Assembly (NCBI GenBank): GCA_035461305.1 | Contig: DATHVN010000174.1 | Coordinates: forward strand, 1 to 42,743 | Length of the DNA: 42,743 bases | Direction: 5' to 3' | Origin: Euzebyales bacterium | GTDB taxonomy: Bacteria; Actinomycetota; Nitriliruptoria; Euzebyales; JAHELV01 | Shown: positions 3,917-42,743 of the stretch, piece after piece | Numbering within the stretch: position 1 is the first letter of the stretch | How the letters are laid out: each line of letters begins with the position of its first letter | Translations under genes and position numbers: made by a program | The notes under the pieces: generated by a model | Database searches by the model: none | Told to the model about the DNA's origin: nothing | What the model saw: the letters and a program-made list of their open reading frames with translations, nothing else

Positions 3917-4640
3917 GGTGAGCCACGGGTCGAAGCGGTCGAAGGGCCTCGATCGGGTGCGGGCGAGCGTCCGCGAGCCGGTGGGCGGGGACCGGATGGT
4001 GCGGGCGAGCGCCAGCGAGCCGGTGGGCGGGGACCGGACGGTGCGGGCGAGCGCCAGCGGAGATGAGACCGTGCGAGCCAGGGCGGCGCAGATCGACGTG
4101 CGCGCGGGAGGGCAGCGTTCCGATCCCGAGCAGCGCATCGACGAGCTGCAACGCCTGTGGACGCCGTGGCGGAACGCCTATGTGACCGACCCTGACGCGT
4201 CGTCGCAGGGCTGCCCGTTCTGCCACCTGCCCGGCCGCGGCGCGGCGCACGACGCCGAGTCGCTGATCCTGCACCGGGGGACCGTGGCGTTCGTCATCCT
4301 CAATGCCTACCCGTACAACCCCGGGCATCTGATGATCGTGCCGTACCGCCATACGGACGACTACGTCTCGCTGTCGGACGCCGAGGTCCACGAGATGGCG
4401 ATCTTGACGCAGCGCGCGGTGCGGGTGCTGCGCCGGACCTCGGGCGCGCACGCGTTCAACATCGGCCTGAACCTCGGCGGGATCGCGGGTGCCGGCATCG
4501 CCGATCACGTGCACCAGCACGTCGTGCCGCGCTGGGGCGGTGACACCAACTTCATGCCCGTGATCGGCCAGACCAGGGTGCTGCCGGAGCTGTTGGACGA
4601 GACGTGGGCGCGCATCGCTCCGGCGTTCGCCGACGGCTGA
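3909..4640 (+). CDS. HIT-domain Ap4A phosphorylase with repeated N-terminal extension
   Basis: A HIT-family nucleotide hydrolase/phosphorylase. The histidine triad is in DHVHQHVVPRWGGDTNFMPV near residue 200, the same context as the mycobacterial Ap4A phosphorylase that also lies between thrS and pgsA. Conserved positions begin at LQRLWTPWRNAYV, about residue 79. Before that lies an extension rich in repeats of VRAS.xEPVGGDR (14-residue period). GTG 3909 overlaps the end of thrS by 8 bases, so translation is probably coupled. Alternative in-frame starts lie in each repeat (3957, 3999, 4041) and at GTG 4099, which would remove the extension. The enzyme is expected to degrade diadenosine tetraphosphate, a by-product of aminoacyl-tRNA synthetases. 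Core assignment is firm; the start is not. Confidence 0.85.
   Translation: MAEVSHGSKRSKGLDRVRASVREPVGGDRMVRASASEPVGGDRTVRASASGDETVRARAAQIDVRAGGQRSDPEQRIDELQRLWTPWRNAYVTDPDASSQGCPFCHLPGRGAAHDAESLILHRGTVAFVILNAYPYNPGHLMIVPYRHTDDYVSLSDAEVHEMAILTQRAVRVLRRTSGAHAFNIGLNLGGIAGAGIADHVHQHVVPRWGGDTNFMPVIGQTRVLPELLDETWARIAPAFADG
3957..4085 (+). repeat. 42-base in-frame tandem repeat at the start of the HIT gene
   Basis: Units begin with GTGCGGGCGAGCG at 3957, 3999 and 4041, a period of 42 bases (14 codons). The third unit is shortened and is followed by a divergent GTGCGAGCCAGG at 4071. The first two full units are nearly identical and each ends in GGGCGGGGACCGG just before another potential start codon. 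The repeat keeps the HIT frame throughout. Confidence 0.85.
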
Positions 4641-9703: not shown

Positions 9704-9742
9704 GTGACCTCATGTAGCGAAGCGGTAGGTCGTCGAACGTGA
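9704..9742 (+). CDS. 12-codon bridging peptide between pdxS and pdxT (dispersed repeat copy)
   Basis: GTG 9704 begins one base after the pdxS stop. The frame reads MTSCSEAVGRRT and ends at TGA 9740-9742, overlapping the pdxT GTG at 9739 as GTGA. The DNA from TGACCTCA at 9705 to GCGGTAGGTC at 9722-9731 is a copy of the repeat also found before secD, between secD and secF and after pyrB, with one base deleted in the middle. The peptide starts MTSCS exactly as the secD-secF copy does. Coupling of pdxS and pdxT translation is the inferred role. Confidence 0.5.
   Translation: MTSCSEAVGRRT
9705..9731 (+). repeat. single dispersed bridging repeat (GACCT...AGGTC) between pdxS and pdxT
   Basis: It begins TGACCTCATG and ends AGCGGTAGGTC. 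The end pentamers GACCT and AGGTC are inverted and can pair. Seven bases separate the element from the pdxT start codon. It is one base shorter than the copies near secD and secF. Confidence 0.75.
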
Positions 9743-15053: not shown

Positions 15054-15164
15054 ATGACCTCAGGTAGCGGCAGCGGTAGGTCACGTGACATGACCTCAGG
15101 TAGCGGCAGCGGTAGGTCAGGTGATGCCGGTCACGGAGCGTCAACGGTAGGTCACCGACCATGA
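15054..15164 (+). CDS. 36-codon repeat-encoded leader peptide upstream of secD
   Basis: ATG 15054 has a strong GAGGAG at 15044-15049. The frame reads two nearly identical 12-residue units, MTSGSGSGRSRD and MTSGSGSGRSGD, then AGHGASTVGHRP. It stops at TGA 15162-15164, overlapping the secD ATG at 15161 as ATGA. The 36-base period preserves the frame. A good ribosome binding site, repeated codons and exact coupling to secD all point to real translation. The likely role is to deliver ribosomes to secD or adjust its level; a structural role for the Gly/Ser peptide cannot be excluded. Confidence 0.6.
   Translation: MTSGSGSGRSRDMTSGSGSGRSGDAGHGASTVGHRP
15055..15153 (+). repeat. tandem dispersed bridging repeat before secD (two full units and one degenerate)
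   Basis: The unit starts TGACCTCA and ends AGCGGTAGGTC. Full copies lie at 15055-15082 and 15091-15118, identical over 28 bases, 36 bases apart. A third, degenerate copy occupies about 15127-15153 and keeps AGCGTCA and CGGTAGGTC. The last AGGTC ends 7 bases before the secD start codon. Confidence 0.9.
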
Positions 15165-16645
15165 GCAGGAGGGGCCTGATCGTCTCGCTGATCGCGTTCC
15201 TCCTGGCGGTCGGCGCGATGTGGGGCACGATCATCGCGCTGGGGTGGCAGCCCCAGCTCGGGCTCGACCTGCGCGGTGGCGTGACCATCACGCTGATCCC
15301 CGCCGCGAACCAGGGCGAGATCGATCAGGAGAAGCTCGACCAGACCGTCGCGGTCATCCGCCAGCGGGTCGACGCGCTGGGCGTGGCCGAGCCCGACATC
15401 GCTCGGCAGGGCCAAACGATCCAGGTCCAGCTACCGGGTGTGGCCGACCAGCAGCGCGCCGAGCAGGTCATCGGTCGTACCGCTGTGCTGCAGTTCCGGC
15501 GGGTGCTCGAGGTCATCCCGCCAGGCTCGTCGGGGTATGACGACGCCGGTGGATCGTGTGACGACATCCTCGACGGGCCACCACCGGCCGACGAGGAGGT
15601 CGTCCTGTGCGGCCAGGAGCCAGATGTCGCCGACGACGCCGAGCAGGCGGCCCAGGACGTCCCGCTGACCAAGTACCGGCTCGGCCGGGTCGAGGTCGCC
15701 GGTGACGACGTCGAGGACGCGACCGCCGAGATCGAGCAGAGCGGGCTCAGCTGGTTCGTCTCGCTCGACTTCTCCCGTGCGGGCGACCAGGCCTTCCAGC
15801 AGCTGACCGGCGAGCTGGCCTGCGAGCCGGTGGGATCGCCGACCCGCCAGCTGGCCATCGTGCTCGACGGCCGCGTCGAGTCGGCCCCCGAGGTCAACGC
15901 GGACGTTGTGTGCGGTCAGGGCATCAGCGGCGGCGGCATCATCACCGTCGGCGGTGAACAGGAGGCCCGCGACCTCGCTGTCGTCCTGCGGACCGGTGCT
16001 CTGCCGCTGGAGCTCGAGTTCGCGCAGTCGCAGTCGATCTCGCCGACGCTCGGCCGTGAATCGCTCATCGCAGGCCTGCAGGGGGGCTTGGTGGGTCTGC
16101 TGCTCGTGGCGCTGTACATGATCGTGCTGTACCGCGGCCTGGGGGTCCTGGCCGTGCTCGAGCTCGTGATGTTCGGCGTGATCGTCTACGGGCTGATCAT
16201 CATCATGAGCAACACGATGGGGTTCACGCTCACGCTGGCGGGGATCGCGGGCATCATCGTGTCCATCGGCATCGCGGCCGACTCGTCGATCATCTACCGC
16301 GAGCGCTACCGCGACGAGCGCCGAGCGGGTCGCACGGTGCGCAGCGCCGCGGAGCATGCCTTCCGGAAGGCGTTCCGCACCAACCTGACGGGCAACACCG
16401 TGTCGTTCCTGGCCGCGGTCGTGCTGTGGCTCCTGGCCGTTGGGCCGGTGCGTGGCTTCGCGTTCACCCTGGGCCTGTCGACGTTGATCGACGCGCTGCT
16501 GTTCGCGACGTTCACCCGCTCGATCTTCGGCCTGGTGGCGAGGTCGCCCAGATTGGCGAACGCTCCGTGGACGGGGTTGCGCACGGTCACGGCCGAGTCC
16601 GCGGAGCCTGGCCGCCGCCCGCGGCAGAAGGTGAAGTCGAGATGA
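15161..16645 (+). CDS. secD: protein translocase subunit SecD
   Basis: Uses the proton gradient with SecF to pull exported proteins across the membrane. The 494-residue protein has an N-terminal helix (GLIVSLIAFLLAVGAMWG), LGLDLRGGVTITL near 30-42, a large external P1 domain with the head subdomain between about 60 and 290, and five further helices beginning at LIAGLQGGLVGLLLVALYMI. The RND-family intramembrane motif is seen in GIAADSSIIYRERYRDERRA (about 367-386, normally D-x-x-I-x-x-E-R). TGA 16643-16645 is itself the first three bases of the next bridging repeat. Confidence 0.97.
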   Translation: MSRRGLIVSLIAFLLAVGAMWGTIIALGWQPQLGLDLRGGVTITLIPAANQGEIDQEKLDQTVAVIRQRVDALGVAEPDIARQGQTIQVQLPGVADQQRAEQVIGRTAVLQFRRVLEVIPPGSSGYDDAGGSCDDILDGPPPADEEVVLCGQEPDVADDAEQAAQDVPLTKYRLGRVEVAGDDVEDATAEIEQSGLSWFVSLDFSRAGDQAFQQLTGELACEPVGSPTRQLAIVLDGRVESAPEVNADVVCGQGISGGGIITVGGEQEARDLAVVLRTGALPLELEFAQSQSISPTLGRESLIAGLQGGLVGLLLVALYMIVLYRGLGVLAVLELVMFGVIVYGLIIIMSNTMGFTLTLAGIAGIIVSIGIAADSSIIYRERYRDERRAGRTVRSAAEHAFRKAFRTNLTGNTVSFLAAVVLWLLAVGPVRGFAFTLGLSTLIDALLFATFTRSIFGLVARSPRLANAPWTGLRTVTAESAEPGRRPRQKVKSR

Positions 16646-16716
16646 CCTCATGCAGCGTCAGCGGTAGGTCGCGTGGCGTGACCTCATGCAGCGTCAGCGG
16701 TAGGTCGCGGCCATGA
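16642..16716 (+). CDS. 24-codon repeat-encoded bridging peptide between secD and secF
   Basis: ATG 16642 overlaps the secD stop as ATGA and the frame ends at TGA 16714-16716, overlapping the secF ATG at 16713 as ATGA. It reads two 12-residue units, MTSCSVSGRSRG and VTSCSVSGRSRP. The whole space between secD and secF is therefore one tiny cistron coupled on both sides. The two DNA units are identical over 28 bases. Coupled re-initiation from secD into secF is the inferred purpose. Confidence 0.6.
   Translation: MTSCSVSGRSRGVTSCSVSGRSRP
16643..16706 (+). repeat. tandem dispersed bridging repeat between secD and secF (two units)
   Basis: Units at 16643-16670 and 16679-16706 are identical and 36 bases apart. 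Each begins TGACCTCATG and ends AGCGGTAGGTC. The end pentamers GACCT and AGGTC and an inner GC pair flanked by a T-G wobble can form a hairpin with loop AGCGTCA. The last unit ends 6 bases before the secF ATG. Confidence 0.92.
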
Positions 16717-38958: not shown

Positions 38959-39053
38959 TTGGCGCCCCCCGCTCGACTCATGCGTCGTCCCCGTGGTCGG
39001 TGGCCACCGGCATGACGCGCCGATCCCGCGATACGTCAGCGTCAGGAGCTAGC

Positions 39054-39494
39054 GTGCGGATCCTGCTCGTGAACGGCCCGAACCTCTCTCAGCTTGGTCA
39101 CCGGGCCCCCGATGTGTACGGCACGTCCACGATCGCCGACATCGTCGCGACCGTCAAGCAGATCCACCACGACGTCGACGTGTTCACATCCGAGTACGAA
39201 GGCGCGCTCATCGAGCGGCTGCACCGGGCGCGGACGGACGGCACCGACGCCGTCGTCATCAACCCGGGCGCGCTCACCCACTACAGCTACGCGTTGCGCG
39301 ACGCGATCGACCTGGTGGGCCTGCCGACGGTCGAGGTGCACCTGTCCCAGACAGCGGCGCGGGAGCCATTCCGCCACCACAGCGTGGTCAGCGCCGTGGT
39401 CGACGTGACGATCACCGGCGCCGGCCCGTACGGCTACGAGCTGGCCATCCTTGCCGCCCGCCGGCTGGTCGAGTCCCGTGCCGACGGGCGCTGA
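39054..39494 (+). CDS. aroQ: 3-dehydroquinate dehydratase, type II
   Basis: Dehydrates 3-dehydroquinate to 3-dehydroshikimate. The 146-residue protein starts at GTG 39054, 5 bases after AGGAG at 39044-39048. The family pattern is seen in ILLVNGPNLSQLGHRAPDVY (with the catalytic Tyr), VFTSEYEGALIERLHRA, INPGALTHYSYALRDAI near 75-91 and VEVHLSQTAAREPFRHHSVV near 98-117 (catalytic His). It completes, with aroB, aroE, aroK and aroC, most of the shikimate pathway in this window. Confidence 0.93.
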   Translation: MRILLVNGPNLSQLGHRAPDVYGTSTIADIVATVKQIHHDVDVFTSEYEGALIERLHRARTDGTDAVVINPGALTHYSYALRDAIDLVGLPTVEVHLSQTAAREPFRHHSVVSAVVDVTITGAGPYGYELAILAARRLVESRADGR

Positions 39495-39497
39495 CGC

Positions 39498-39503
39498 TAC
39501 ACT
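39498..39503 (+). promoter_or_regulatory. -10 element (TACACT) upstream of efp
   Basis: TACACT starts 3 bases after the aroQ stop and about 120 bases before efp, giving efp-nusB their own promoter. It is the hexamer also seen before lemA. Confidence 0.4.
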
Positions 39504-39619
39504 CGCGCCATCGCCGGACGGGGGCCCGCCGGTCCACGCGTGCGCGGTGGCACGCTCCCGAGGCCAGGACCACCGGCCCGGCGCCCACGGCGCGCGATCC
39601 ACGACCTGAGGTAGTTGCC

Positions 39620-40177
39620 ATGGTGTCCACCAACAGCTTGAAGAACGGCATGACGTTGAACCTCGACGGCGAGCTGTGGCGCGTCGAGTACTTCCAGCAC
39701 GTCAAGCCGGGCAAGGGCGGCGCCTTCGTCCGGACGACCCTGAAGGGGGTGCGCAGCGGCAAGACCGTCGACCGGACCTTCCGTGCCGGCGAAGACGTCG
39801 AGCAGGCCATCCTCACCCGACGGCAGCTGCAGTACCTGTACCGCGAGGGCCAGCAGCTCGTGTTCATGGACACTGGGCACTTCGAGCAGACCTACGTCAG
39901 CGAGGAGGCCATCGGTGACGCGGCGCTGTGGTTCGTCGAGGGCGACACGATCGAGCTGGTGTTCCACGACTCCGAGGTGGTCGGCGTGAACCTGCCGGCC
40001 AGCGTCGACCTGACCGTCACCGAGACCGAGCCCGGCATCCAGGGCGACCGCGTGTCGGGCGCCACCAAGCCCGCCACGCTCGAGACTGGCGCGGTCGTCC
40101 AGGTGCCGCTGTTCATCAACCCCGGCGAGCGGATCCGGGTGGACACGCGCACCAGGGCCTACAGTTCGCGGGCGTAG
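39620..40177 (+). CDS. efp: translation elongation factor P
   Basis: Relieves ribosome stalling at polyproline. The 185-residue protein has three OB-like domains: SLKNGMTLNLDGELWRVEYF near 6-25, the modification loop KPGKGGAF with Lys at position 32, and the C-terminal signature KPATLETGAVVQVPLFINPG near 150-169. GAGGTAG at 39608-39614 is a good binding site for ATG 39620. No lysine-modifying enzyme gene is nearby. Confidence 0.97.
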   Translation: MVSTNSLKNGMTLNLDGELWRVEYFQHVKPGKGGAFVRTTLKGVRSGKTVDRTFRAGEDVEQAILTRRQLQYLYREGQQLVFMDTGHFEQTYVSEEAIGDAALWFVEGDTIELVFHDSEVVGVNLPASVDLTVTETEPGIQGDRVSGATKPATLETGAVVQVPLFINPGERIRVDTRTRAYSSRA

Positions 40178-40188
40178 GAACCGACGTG

Positions 40189-40229
40189 ATGCGCGCCCCT
40201 CCGGCGTGAGCGGCAGGCACACCTCATGA
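40189..40229 (+). CDS. two chained mini-frames between efp and nusB
   Basis: ATG 40189 reads MRAPPA and stops at 40207-40209, overlapping GTG 40206 as GTGA. That second frame reads MSGRHTS and stops at 40227-40229, overlapping the nusB ATG at 40226 as ATGA. The second frame resembles the start of nusB itself (MSGSRHTDRQ) in both protein and DNA (TGAGCGG, then CAGGCACACC versus CCGGCACACC), as if the start of nusB had been partly duplicated. Confidence 0.3.
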
Positions 40230-40666
40230 GCGGATCCCGGCACACCGACAGGCAGCGCGCGGTCGCGTTGCTGTACGAGGCGGACCTGCGAGGTGACGAT
40301 CCCGCCGAGGTCCTCGCACGGTCCGGAGAGACCGATGACCCGCCCGCGCCGTTCACCCTCGCGCTCGTCACCGGGGTCGCAGGCGCCCGGGCCGAGCTGG
40401 ACCGCCTCATCCAGGCCTACGCCCGCGGCTGGACCATCGAGCGCATGCCGATCGTCGACCGCAACCTCCTGCGGGTCGGGCTGTGGGAGCTCATCGGCTC
40501 GGACGTCCCCGTCGCCGTGGTGATCGACGAGGCCGTGGAGCTGGCCAACGAGCTGTCCACGCCCGACTCCGGCCGCTTCATCAACGGCGTGCTGGCGCAG
40601 GTCGCCCGCAGCGAGGACCGGGTGACCGCCATGCGCGGCGGGACCACTGACGTGCGTTCCCGCTGA
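40226..40666 (+). CDS. nusB: transcription antitermination factor NusB
   Basis: Binds boxA RNA with S10 during rRNA transcription. The 146-residue helical protein shows RQRAVALLYEADLRGDDPAE near 9-28, RGWTIERMPIVDRNLLRVGL near 68-87 and VVIDEAVELANELSTPDSGR followed by FINGVLAQVAR near 98-128, all typical. The order efp-nusB is conserved. The start ATG is at the end of a chain of mini-frames. Confidence 0.95.
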   Translation: MSGSRHTDRQRAVALLYEADLRGDDPAEVLARSGETDDPPAPFTLALVTGVAGARAELDRLIQAYARGWTIERMPIVDRNLLRVGLWELIGSDVPVAVVIDEAVELANELSTPDSGRFINGVLAQVARSEDRVTAMRGGTTDVRSR

Positions 40667-40777
40667 ACCGGCCGCGCGGCCGCATCCGCTGGACACATCT
40701 CGTGAGACGCGCGGTCGCCGGTCGCGACCTGATGCATCGTCGGACACGCTCACAGGTGGGTCGAGCATACGCATGGC

Positions 40778-41002
40778 ATGAGTACACGTCTGCAGGTCGT
40801 GCTCGACGACGAGGAGCTCGAGGACATCCGACGAGTGGCGCGGCGCCACGGCATGACCGTCTCGGAGTGGGTCCGCCAGACCCTGCGCCGAGCATGCCGC
40901 CAGACGGCGTCGGGATCCGTCGATCGCAAGCTCGCGGCCGTCCGCGCCGCTGCTGCGCATGAGTTCCCGACATCCGAGCCGCGCCGTGTGGGTTCGTTGT
41001 GA
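40778..41002 (+). CDS. orphan ribbon-helix-helix antitoxin-like protein (VapB type)
   Basis: A 74-residue protein with a strong RHH DNA-binding pattern: RLQVVLDDEELEDIRRVARR, then HGMTVSEWVRQTLRRACRQT. The tail VDRKLAAVRAAAAHEFPTSE resembles the toxin-binding end of VapB antitoxins, but it stops early (PRRVGSL) without the usual acidic segment. No PIN-domain toxin gene follows; the next gene is pyrR. It is therefore an orphan, perhaps a domesticated regulator or leftover antitoxin. Its last bases overlap the predicted -35 box of the pyr operon. Confidence 0.75.
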   Translation: MSTRLQVVLDDEELEDIRRVARRHGMTVSEWVRQTLRRACRQTASGSVDRKLAAVRAAAAHEFPTSEPRRVGSL

Positions 41003-41025
41003 CCGGAGGAGGCGCCTGCTACCTT
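40997..41025 (+). promoter_or_regulatory. pyr operon promoter (TTGTGA, 17-base spacer, TACCTT)
   Basis: -35 TTGTGA at 40997-41002 and -10 TACCTT at 41020-41025 are 17 bases apart, a near-ideal arrangement. Transcription would begin near 41032, just before the PyrR-binding loop. Confidence 0.6.
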
Positions 41026-41036
41026 CAAGCCGACGC

Positions 41037-41068
41037 CCTTTAAGCCTGGTCCCGCGAGGCCAGAAAGG
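41037..41068 (+). promoter_or_regulatory. PyrR-binding RNA loop over the pyrR ribosome binding site
   Basis: CCTTT at 41037-41041 pairs with AAAGG at 41064-41068, and CCTGG with CCAG closer in, leaving the loop with TCCCGCGAGG. This matches the PyrR binding loop known from pyr operons, with its conserved GGTCC and GAGGCC. The 3' arm AAAGG is also the ribosome binding site for pyrR (ATG at 41078), so binding of PyrR with UMP would block translation. No terminator hairpin follows, so translational control, as known in mycobacteria, is inferred. Confidence 0.75.
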
Positions 41069-41077
41069 TCGAGATCG

Positions 41078-41659
41078 ATGACGGCTGCGCGTGCATCCGG
41101 TGCCGTGACCCCCGACCCCCTGTCGCGTGAGGTCCTCGATGCGGAGGCGATCCGTCGGGCGGTGCGGCGCATGGCGCACCAGATCCTCGAGCACCACTCG
41201 GGCGCGGATGCTCTCGTGGTCATGGGCGTCCACACGCGCGGTGCGCCGCTCGCACGGCGCCTCGTGACCGACATCGAGGAGATCGAGCAGGTCCGCGTGC
41301 CGGTGGGTGCGCTCGACGTGTCGCTGTACCGCGACGACTATGCGCGCATCGGCCCCCGGCCCCTGGAACGCACGCACTTCCCCGTCGACACCGCCGGGCG
41401 CACCGTGATCCTGGTGGACGACGTCCTGTACACGGGACGGACCGTACGCGCCGCGATGGAGGCGGTCATCGACCAGGGCCGGCCGGACGCGATCGAGCTG
41501 GCGGTGCTGGTCGACCGTGGGCACAGGGAGCTGCCGATCCGCGCGGACTACGTGGGCAAGAACCTGCCGACGGCCGCCGACGAGGTCGTACGCGTGCGGC
41601 TGCGGGAGCACGACGACGTCGACGCCGTGTCCATCGAGCACAGGACGGCGCAGCAGTGA
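41078..41659 (+). CDS. pyrR: pyrimidine operon regulator / uracil phosphoribosyltransferase PyrR
   Basis: An RNA-binding regulator that senses UMP and also converts uracil to UMP weakly. The 193-residue protein shows [19 protein letters not shown] near 46-64, [10 protein letters not shown] near 79-88 and the PRPP motif [20 protein letters not shown] near 109-128. ATG 41078 follows AAAGG of the loop. Its TGA overlaps the GTG of pyrB as GTGA. Confidence 0.95.
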
Positions 41660-42636
41660 CAACACCCGACGCGATCGTCCTCGACCCGCCCGACACCCAC
41701 AGGCGTGGGCTGACCCACCTGCTGGACATGGCGGCGCTCGACGCCGACACGATCACCGCCGTCCTCGACACCGCCCGCGCGTTCGAGCAGCTCGCGACCC
41801 GTCCGATCAAGAAGGTGCCGACCCTGCGTGGTCGGACCGTGTGCAACCTGTTCTACGAGGACTCCACCCGCACGCGGGTCAGCTTCGAGATCGCCGCGAA
41901 GCGCCTGTCGGCCGACGTGCTGAACTTCTCGGCGAAGGGCTCGAGCGTGTCGAAGGGGGAATCGCTGAAGGACACGGCGCTGACCCTGCAGGCGATGGGC
42001 GTCGACGCGATCGTCATCCGCCACCACGCTTCCGGTGCCCCGTGGCAGCTGATGCGCTGGGTCGACGGGCATGTGTTGAACGCGGGTGACGGTCGCCACC
42101 AGCACCCGACCCAGGCGCTTCTCGACCTGTTCACGATCCGTGAGCGCTTCGGCACGCTGAGCGGCCTGCACGTCGCGGTCGTCGGCGACGTGCTGCACTC
42201 TCGTGTGGCGCGCAGCCTCGTGCAGGGGCTGCGCACGATGGGTGCCGGCGTCACACTCATCGGTCCGCCCACCCTGCTGCCGATGGCGGCTGGGGACTGG
42301 GGCGTCGACATCGCGCACGATCCCGACCCGGTGCTGGGCAAGGCCGACGTGGTCTACCTGCTGCGGGTCCAGCGCGAGCGGATGGAGGAGCAGTTCATCC
42401 CCTCGATCCGCGAGTACGCACGCCTGTGGGGCGTCGATCGCCGGCGACTCGGCCAGCTGGCCGACCAGGCCGTGATCATGCACCCTGGCCCGATGAACCG
42501 CGGGATCGAGTTGACGGCCGACGCGGCCGATGCGCCGAACTCGCTGATCACGCAGCAGGTGGCCAACGGCGTCGCCGTGCGCATGAGCTGCCTGTACCTG
42601 ATGCTCGGGGGCGACCATCCGACCCAAGGCGGTTGA
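41656..42636 (+). CDS. pyrB: aspartate carbamoyltransferase catalytic subunit
   Basis: Joins carbamoyl phosphate and aspartate in pyrimidine synthesis. The 326-residue enzyme has the carbamoyl phosphate site [20 protein letters not shown] near 66-85, [20 protein letters not shown] near 95-114, [20 protein letters not shown] near 144-163 and the C-terminal [11 protein letters not shown] near 276-286. GTG 41656 overlaps pyrR. No regulatory chain gene is present, as expected in actinobacteria. Six bases after the stop the repeat-encoded leader begins, presumably reaching pyrC. Confidence 0.97.
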
Positions 42637-42642
42637 GCGGAC

Positions 42643-42743
42643 ATGACCTCAGGCAGCGTCGGCGGTAGGTCGCGTTGTGTGACCTCAGGCAGCGTCGGCG
42701 GTAGGTCGCGTTGTGTGACCTCAGGCAGCGTCAGCGGTAGGTC
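42643..42743 (+). CDS. repeat-encoded bridging peptide after pyrB (partial, runs off the window)
   Basis: ATG 42643, 6 bases after the pyrB stop, opens a frame of 12-residue units: MTSGSVGGRSRC, VTSGSVGGRSRC and VTSGSVSGRS, still open at the window edge. By analogy with the other copies it should end in an ATGA or GTGA overlap with the next gene, likely pyrC. No separate ribosome binding site is strong (TTGAGCGG before it), so coupling to pyrB is likely. Confidence 0.55.
   Translation, partial: MTSGSVGGRSRCVTSGSVGGRSRCVTSGSVSGR
42644..42743 (+). repeat. tandem dispersed bridging repeat after pyrB (three units, continues beyond the window)
   Basis: Units at 42644-42671, 42680-42707 and 42716-42743, 36 bases apart. 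The first two are identical over 36 bases; the third differs at one base in the core. Each begins TGACCTCAGG and ends GCGGTAGGTC. This is the longest array in the window and may extend further. Confidence 0.92.

Follow-up and report, generated by a model that had tools for sequence, protein, structure and literature searches.

The window, a 42743-base stretch of DNA that is a complete contig (G000:C174) of a 237-contig genome bin, ends within a tandem repeat that follows pyrB.

41656–42636, + strand: pyrB, aspartate carbamoyltransferase, the gene upstream of the array (NCBIfam NF002032, 397.8 bits, cut-off 263)
42643–42743, + strand: three-unit array with a mini-ORF, ATG ACC TCA ... MTSGSVGGRSRCVTSGSVGGRSRCVTSGSVSGR, open up to the contig end
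42644–42679, + strand: unit 1, a 28-base hairpin and an 8-base spacer
42680–42715, + strand: unit 2, identical to unit 1 at 36 of 36 positions
42716–42743, + strand: unit 3, truncated by the contig end after 28 bases, 27 of which match unit 1

The unit consists of TGACCTCAGGCAGCGTCRGCGGTAGGTC followed by 8 bases, and all three units lie within 42644–42743 (Tandem Repeats Finder: period 36, 2.8 copies, 98% matches, score 193, the top score in the window). The stop codon of pyrB occupies 42634–42636, and the first ATGA of the array lies six bases downstream. The first-pass annotation had described a three-unit array running off the stretch, the longest one present, with its first two units identical over their full length, and each of these statements is borne out. 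The array runs off the window because the assembly stopped inside it; in the congeners, gaps within such arrays appear as N runs. The other arrays of the window are shorter, with one unit, two units and a decayed one, and two units, respectively:

9704–9742, + strand: single unit with the loop GAA between two co-directional genes; its mini-ORF, GTG...TGA, ends on the GTGA with which the next gene starts at 9739
15054–15164, + strand: two units and a decayed third before secD; the TGA that closes the mini-ORF overlaps the ATGA with which secD starts (15161)
16642–16716, + strand: secD/secF junction, two units, with the mini-ORF MTSCSVSGRSRGVTSCSVSGRSRP followed by a stop

At the secD/secF junction, the stop of secD lies in the first ATGA and the start of secF in the last one. 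Thus, in all three complete arrays of the window, the mini-ORF stops on the start of the next gene (9739, 15161 and 16713). Two other features of the window can be recorded here. A separate 42-base tandem repeat (3956–4059, 2.5 copies, 95% matches) is unrelated in sequence to the hairpin units, and GTGACCACCGAAAGCCCGGGGGAGGGTGGTCGGACATGACC, no more than about 90 bases before the aroE-like gene, resembles a palindromic insertion at a GTGA stop-start site, either a further one or one in decay.

The bin was searched for the far side of the pyrB array, and none was found; the sole complete pyrC beside a pyrB, on contig C89, has its own pyrB. The two pyrB regions of the bin are 82% identical at the DNA level, so that, at this locus, the window and C89 come from different congeners and the bin is mixed. 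The bin also holds two versions of the efp-nusB-pyrR-pyrB region (about 39040–42743 of the window and G000:C89:46000–56140, locus L237). Beyond 42743, the sequence should continue with further units and then pyrC with a DTGA start (ATGA, GTGA or TTGA). Elsewhere in the bin, the start of contig C61 (L057) and the end of contig C192 (L065) carry terminal arrays with an identical unit sequence; these contigs probably join at the shared array, upstream of a RibF-like gene.

The pyrB array is a member of a dispersed family. When up to 3 mismatches are allowed, a 28-base pattern finds 38, 27, 43 and 9 copies in the four congeneric genomes, with 38 in the source genome; the reversed pattern, used as a control on the same genomes, gives 0 matches, so the 38 copies are not a chance result. 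A shorter core without the arms, with 1 mismatch, has 59, 50, 68 and 30 matches in the four congeners (about 30–75 per congeneric genome). In the order and the class, the distribution of the core is patchy (G014, G019, G020, G021, G025, G027, G040 and G048, with one match in G049), the named relatives that carry it being Nitriliruptorales and Euzebyaceae bins. Erythrobacter and Porphyrobacter, too, have exact matches, some of them in tandem; in Erythrobacter sp. SCN 62-14 (C1:99200–102400, L307), units with the same core, with a CTCAAGCAGCGTAAGCGGTAG variant, lie beside an apparent tRNA gene. Plasmid and phage records yielded no match to the element, and the one match to a viral contig (L246) was dismissed as chance, being inside a gene of a contig of 37% GC, with unpaired arms. 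At position 7 of the core, C predominates in G000 and G003, and T in G001 and G002, a species style of copies that is as expected for spread or homogenisation within lineages. Periods of 33, 34, 35, 36, 38 and 39 bases are all seen among the arrays. Spacings of 130–190 bases between unit clusters were considered as a higher-order structure and rejected, as they are N runs in scaffolds. In the order relative G019 (L015, near 1500–1560), two units appear to lead in frame into a TrmD-like protein, as an N-terminal extension.

The unit, of about 35 bases, comprises DTGA, an arm, the core CTCAnGYAGC-G(N)NA-GCGGTAG, the complementary arm and a spacer of 6–7 bases. The arms vary and nevertheless remain complementary (GACC/GGTC, GTGCC/GGCAC, GCGCC/GGCGC, GCGA/TCGC, GTCC/GGAC and others). 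Watson-Crick pairing is found at the first three arm positions in 158, 155 and 151 of 165 arrays, whereas shuffling gives 116, 60 and 82 on average and 126, 79 and 96 at most, and all four Watson-Crick types are present at arm position 2. Copying of the arm from the start of the target gene was considered, as seen at hisA (ATGAGTG) and at L168 (ATGAGCGC), and rejected as a general rule, since the arms follow subfamilies. The three-base loops, which were not selected by the search patterns, have the form GNA in 50 of 50 cases; among the four-base loops, all except about ten of 222 (about 95%) have the form GNNA, a share that is biased upwards because the fetched loci were chosen with patterns specifying GCGNCAGC. 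Most of the four-base loops are GNCA, not GNRA, which, by our inference, points somewhat more to DNA than to a classical RNA tetraloop. For single units, the predicted folding energy is modest.

The placement of the arrays was tabulated in four genomes, with one row for each of 107 arrays and with gene starts that are our own calls from a simple codon model. An in-frame start codon lies within 16 nt of the last core in 60 of the 107 arrays, and this start lies 35 nt from the unit's own D(TGAC) in 39 of these 60 and 36 nt from it in 11. In many of the remaining arrays, a decayed unit lies between the last good unit and the start, so that the spacing from the end of the core to the start is 45 instead of 9–10. 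The next gene starts with DTGA in 55 of the 60 arrays, compared with 143 of 322 (44%) starts of other genes (P about 1e-12). In 19 of the 33 arrays with a DTGA in the first unit and a callable upstream stop, the TGA of that unit doubles as the stop of the preceding gene, and a first-pass table has the gene after the array co-directional with it in nearly all cases. This placement is a trait of the present lineage and its order relatives rather than of the core, because two other carriers differ: in the class relative G048, the units follow the upstream stop, 22–30 nt before the start, with a separate Shine-Dalgarno sequence, and in Erythrobacter, they adjoin a tRNA gene and occupy other spacers.

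The first-pass annotation had further predicted that the repeat frame stops at the start codon of the next gene, expected to be pyrC, and that this start is ATGA or GTGA. At the pyr locus of the relatives, the prediction holds. In G003, pyrB ends as TCATGA on the first unit; two units are followed by GGTAGGTC-GTCCGC-GTGACC, the start of pyrC, and the mini-ORF stop sits on the GTGA of pyrC, 6 nt past GGTAGGTC. In the second pyrB-pyrC copy of the bin, on C89, three 35-base units and a decayed one precede ATGATC, the pyrC start. Across the four congeners, the rule is less strict: of 40 last units with a DTGA, the mini-ORF ends precisely on the start codon in 26, continues into the gene in the same frame in 9, an outcome that the first-pass annotation had named as refuting its prediction, and does neither in 5; 13 further arrays near a start have no DTGA at the expected place, and several arrays lie 20–200 nt from the called start. 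The stop-on-start excess (26 of 40 compared with the expected 1/3; P = 4e-5) is computed over arrays of which those related by descent are not independent, and it is no proof of selection because 35 bases could simply be the element's own length. Selection for the frame is hinted at most clearly by compensation between loop and spacer in the last units: a shortened loop goes with a spacer longer by one base in 10 of 12 cases and a full loop with a short spacer in 29 of 40 (P = 0.0015), a relation that is absent in internal units. For this comparison, too, arrays of common descent do not count as independent cases.

Comparison of orthologous junctions contributes a different line of evidence. 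Empty junctions have a plain, single DTGA stop/start overlap, and filled ones have DTGA at both ends of the insert. Four pairs illustrate the pattern:

secD/secF: empty in a congener, GTGAAGAGCAGATGACG (GAGCAG-ATGACG); filled in the window, GTGAAGTCGAG-ATGACCTC...GCGGCC-ATGACA (left flank GTCGAG)
aroE: empty, GCGGCGTGACG (GCGGC-GTGACG); filled, GCGGC-ATGACCTC...GTCGGTC-GTGACG, with 35 bases added
nusB: empty, GGGCGTGACG (GGGC-GTGACG); filled, GGGC-GTGAGCGCCTC...CCTGG-GTGACG (insert beginning with GTGAGCG)
hisA: empty, CACGGTGAGCG; filled, with an array ending CACACGTC-ATGAGTG

The single overlap is the simpler state, and the filling is lineage-specific; from these sequence comparisons, we infer that the direction of change would be gain rather than loss.

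Several explanations of these features can be considered. The units could be a cis-acting RNA hairpin in front of start codons that binds a regulator or influences initiation, in which case placement and orientation would reflect function and not an insertion preference. The fixed orientation, the spacing of 9–10 nt from GGTAG to the start, the compensated arms with a conserved core and the retention of arrays at the same gene in congeners (lepA, fabH, nuoM, hisH and pyrC) all fit this explanation. We nevertheless regard it as unlikely, considering that the target genes are a scatter of housekeeping functions, that many junctions carry the array in one species but not in another, that some copies fall within genes or next to a tRNA gene, and that the AGG end, which resembles a Shine-Dalgarno sequence, is variable (TAGG, TAGC, TAGT and TAGA all occur). 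No Rfam family corresponds to the unit either: the Rfam 15 covariance models gave no match at the gathering level in the window and the loci of the four relatives, the array producing chance-level matches only.

An element of the REP/REPIN type, moved by a RAYT transposase, would account for a short intergenic imperfect palindrome with GTAG, compensatory changes and tandem clusters, as in REPINs (PMC3116915), and is less probable still. Matches to Y1_Tnp are present in 0 of the four congeners and in 1 of 66 genomes of the class, namely, G011, which itself lacks the element, and targeting of start codons in a fixed orientation is not a feature of REP sequences; given that none of the element carriers of the class has Y1_Tnp, this reading was rejected. 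The proposal that the repeat is a coding one, with mini-ORFs for short functional peptides or for extensions of the N-terminus, which draws on the open mini-ORFs of the window arrays, the 9 of 40 last units in frame with the gene and the in-frame units before TrmD in G019, is the least credible of all and was also rejected: unit position 16, a second codon position, is the most variable column, with all four bases about equally frequent, and the variable positions do not fall on third codon positions, while two rare codons, TCA (4% of Ser) and AGG (3.5% of Arg), have been retained. Conservation therefore does not concern the peptide, and the periods between 33 and 39 include 34, 35 and 38. The conserved entity is the hairpin.

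The array behind pyrB is thus best explained, in our judgement with good probability, as a tandemly amplified copy of a dispersed, MIRU-like hairpin that inserts at DTGA overlaps and is tolerated through a mini-ORF relay. Under this mechanism, the element would move into DTGA start or stop-start sites, and the moving form is probably a single-stranded DNA hairpin, because the loops are GNA or GNNA and the arms are compensated. After insertion, the array would expand by tandem duplication, presumably through slippage. The mini-ORF would begin on the left DTGA and mostly stop on the right DTGA, or else continue in frame into the gene, so that a ribosome leaving the upstream gene could be relayed to the next one; because of this relay, insertion would be tolerated even in operons of essential genes (secDF, pyrBC).

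A broader proposition, which we consider possible without favouring it outright, is that mobile mini-hairpins constitute a family with a core common to Nitriliruptoria and Erythrobacteraceae and covarying arms, moved without a Y1 transposase, in which one lineage has specialised on stop-start overlaps via a relay mini-ORF. The literature searched, which left out most subscription papers, contains no earlier description of such a family. For practical purposes, these arrays break assemblies exactly between the genes of an operon, as at the end of the contig studied here.

Among known systems, the closest parallel is MIRU. According to a review that cites Supply et al. 1997 (PMC12548453), MIRU inserts at DTGA start or stop-start sites and survives because its own mini-ORF hands ribosomes over to the next gene. 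Its units are given as 53 and 77 bases long, and for MIRU in senX3-regX3, M. leprae and the M. tuberculosis complex are the only reported hosts. The present element resembles MIRU in its apparent insertion at start codons or DTGA stop-start overlaps (the 55 of 60 starts and the empty and filled junctions), in an internal small ORF with a 4-base overlap that couples it to the next gene (26 of 40 at -4, and 9 in frame), and in tandem copies oriented as the flanking genes. It differs in its unit of 33–39 bases, which falls outside the MIRU lengths, in the hairpin core with a GNA or GNNA loop and compensated arms, and in its hosts. Judged by the published description, the element would work like MIRU.

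With REPINs, which are clustered in tandem together with their flanks (PMC3116915), the element shares the many-copy, short extragenic imperfect palindrome, the compensatory changes and the tandem clusters, and it differs in having direct-repeat units instead of inverted doublets, in the strict placement at start codons and in the lack of RAYT in the genomes of the class that carry it. At the structural level, a very stable DNA mini-hairpin of the d(GCGAAGC) type forms where two G-C pairs close a GNA or GNNA loop (PMC4686876); the core of the element, GC-GNA-GC or GC-GNNA-GC, fits this rule, although what the rule describes is a structural motif and not a mobile element family. How repeats of the MIRU type reach start codons, and why essential operons tolerate them, have so far been open questions, for which the Nitriliruptoria element offers a second system: empty and filled sites can be told apart clearly among congeners, the hairpin core is defined, the frame is testable base by base and no pathogen is involved.
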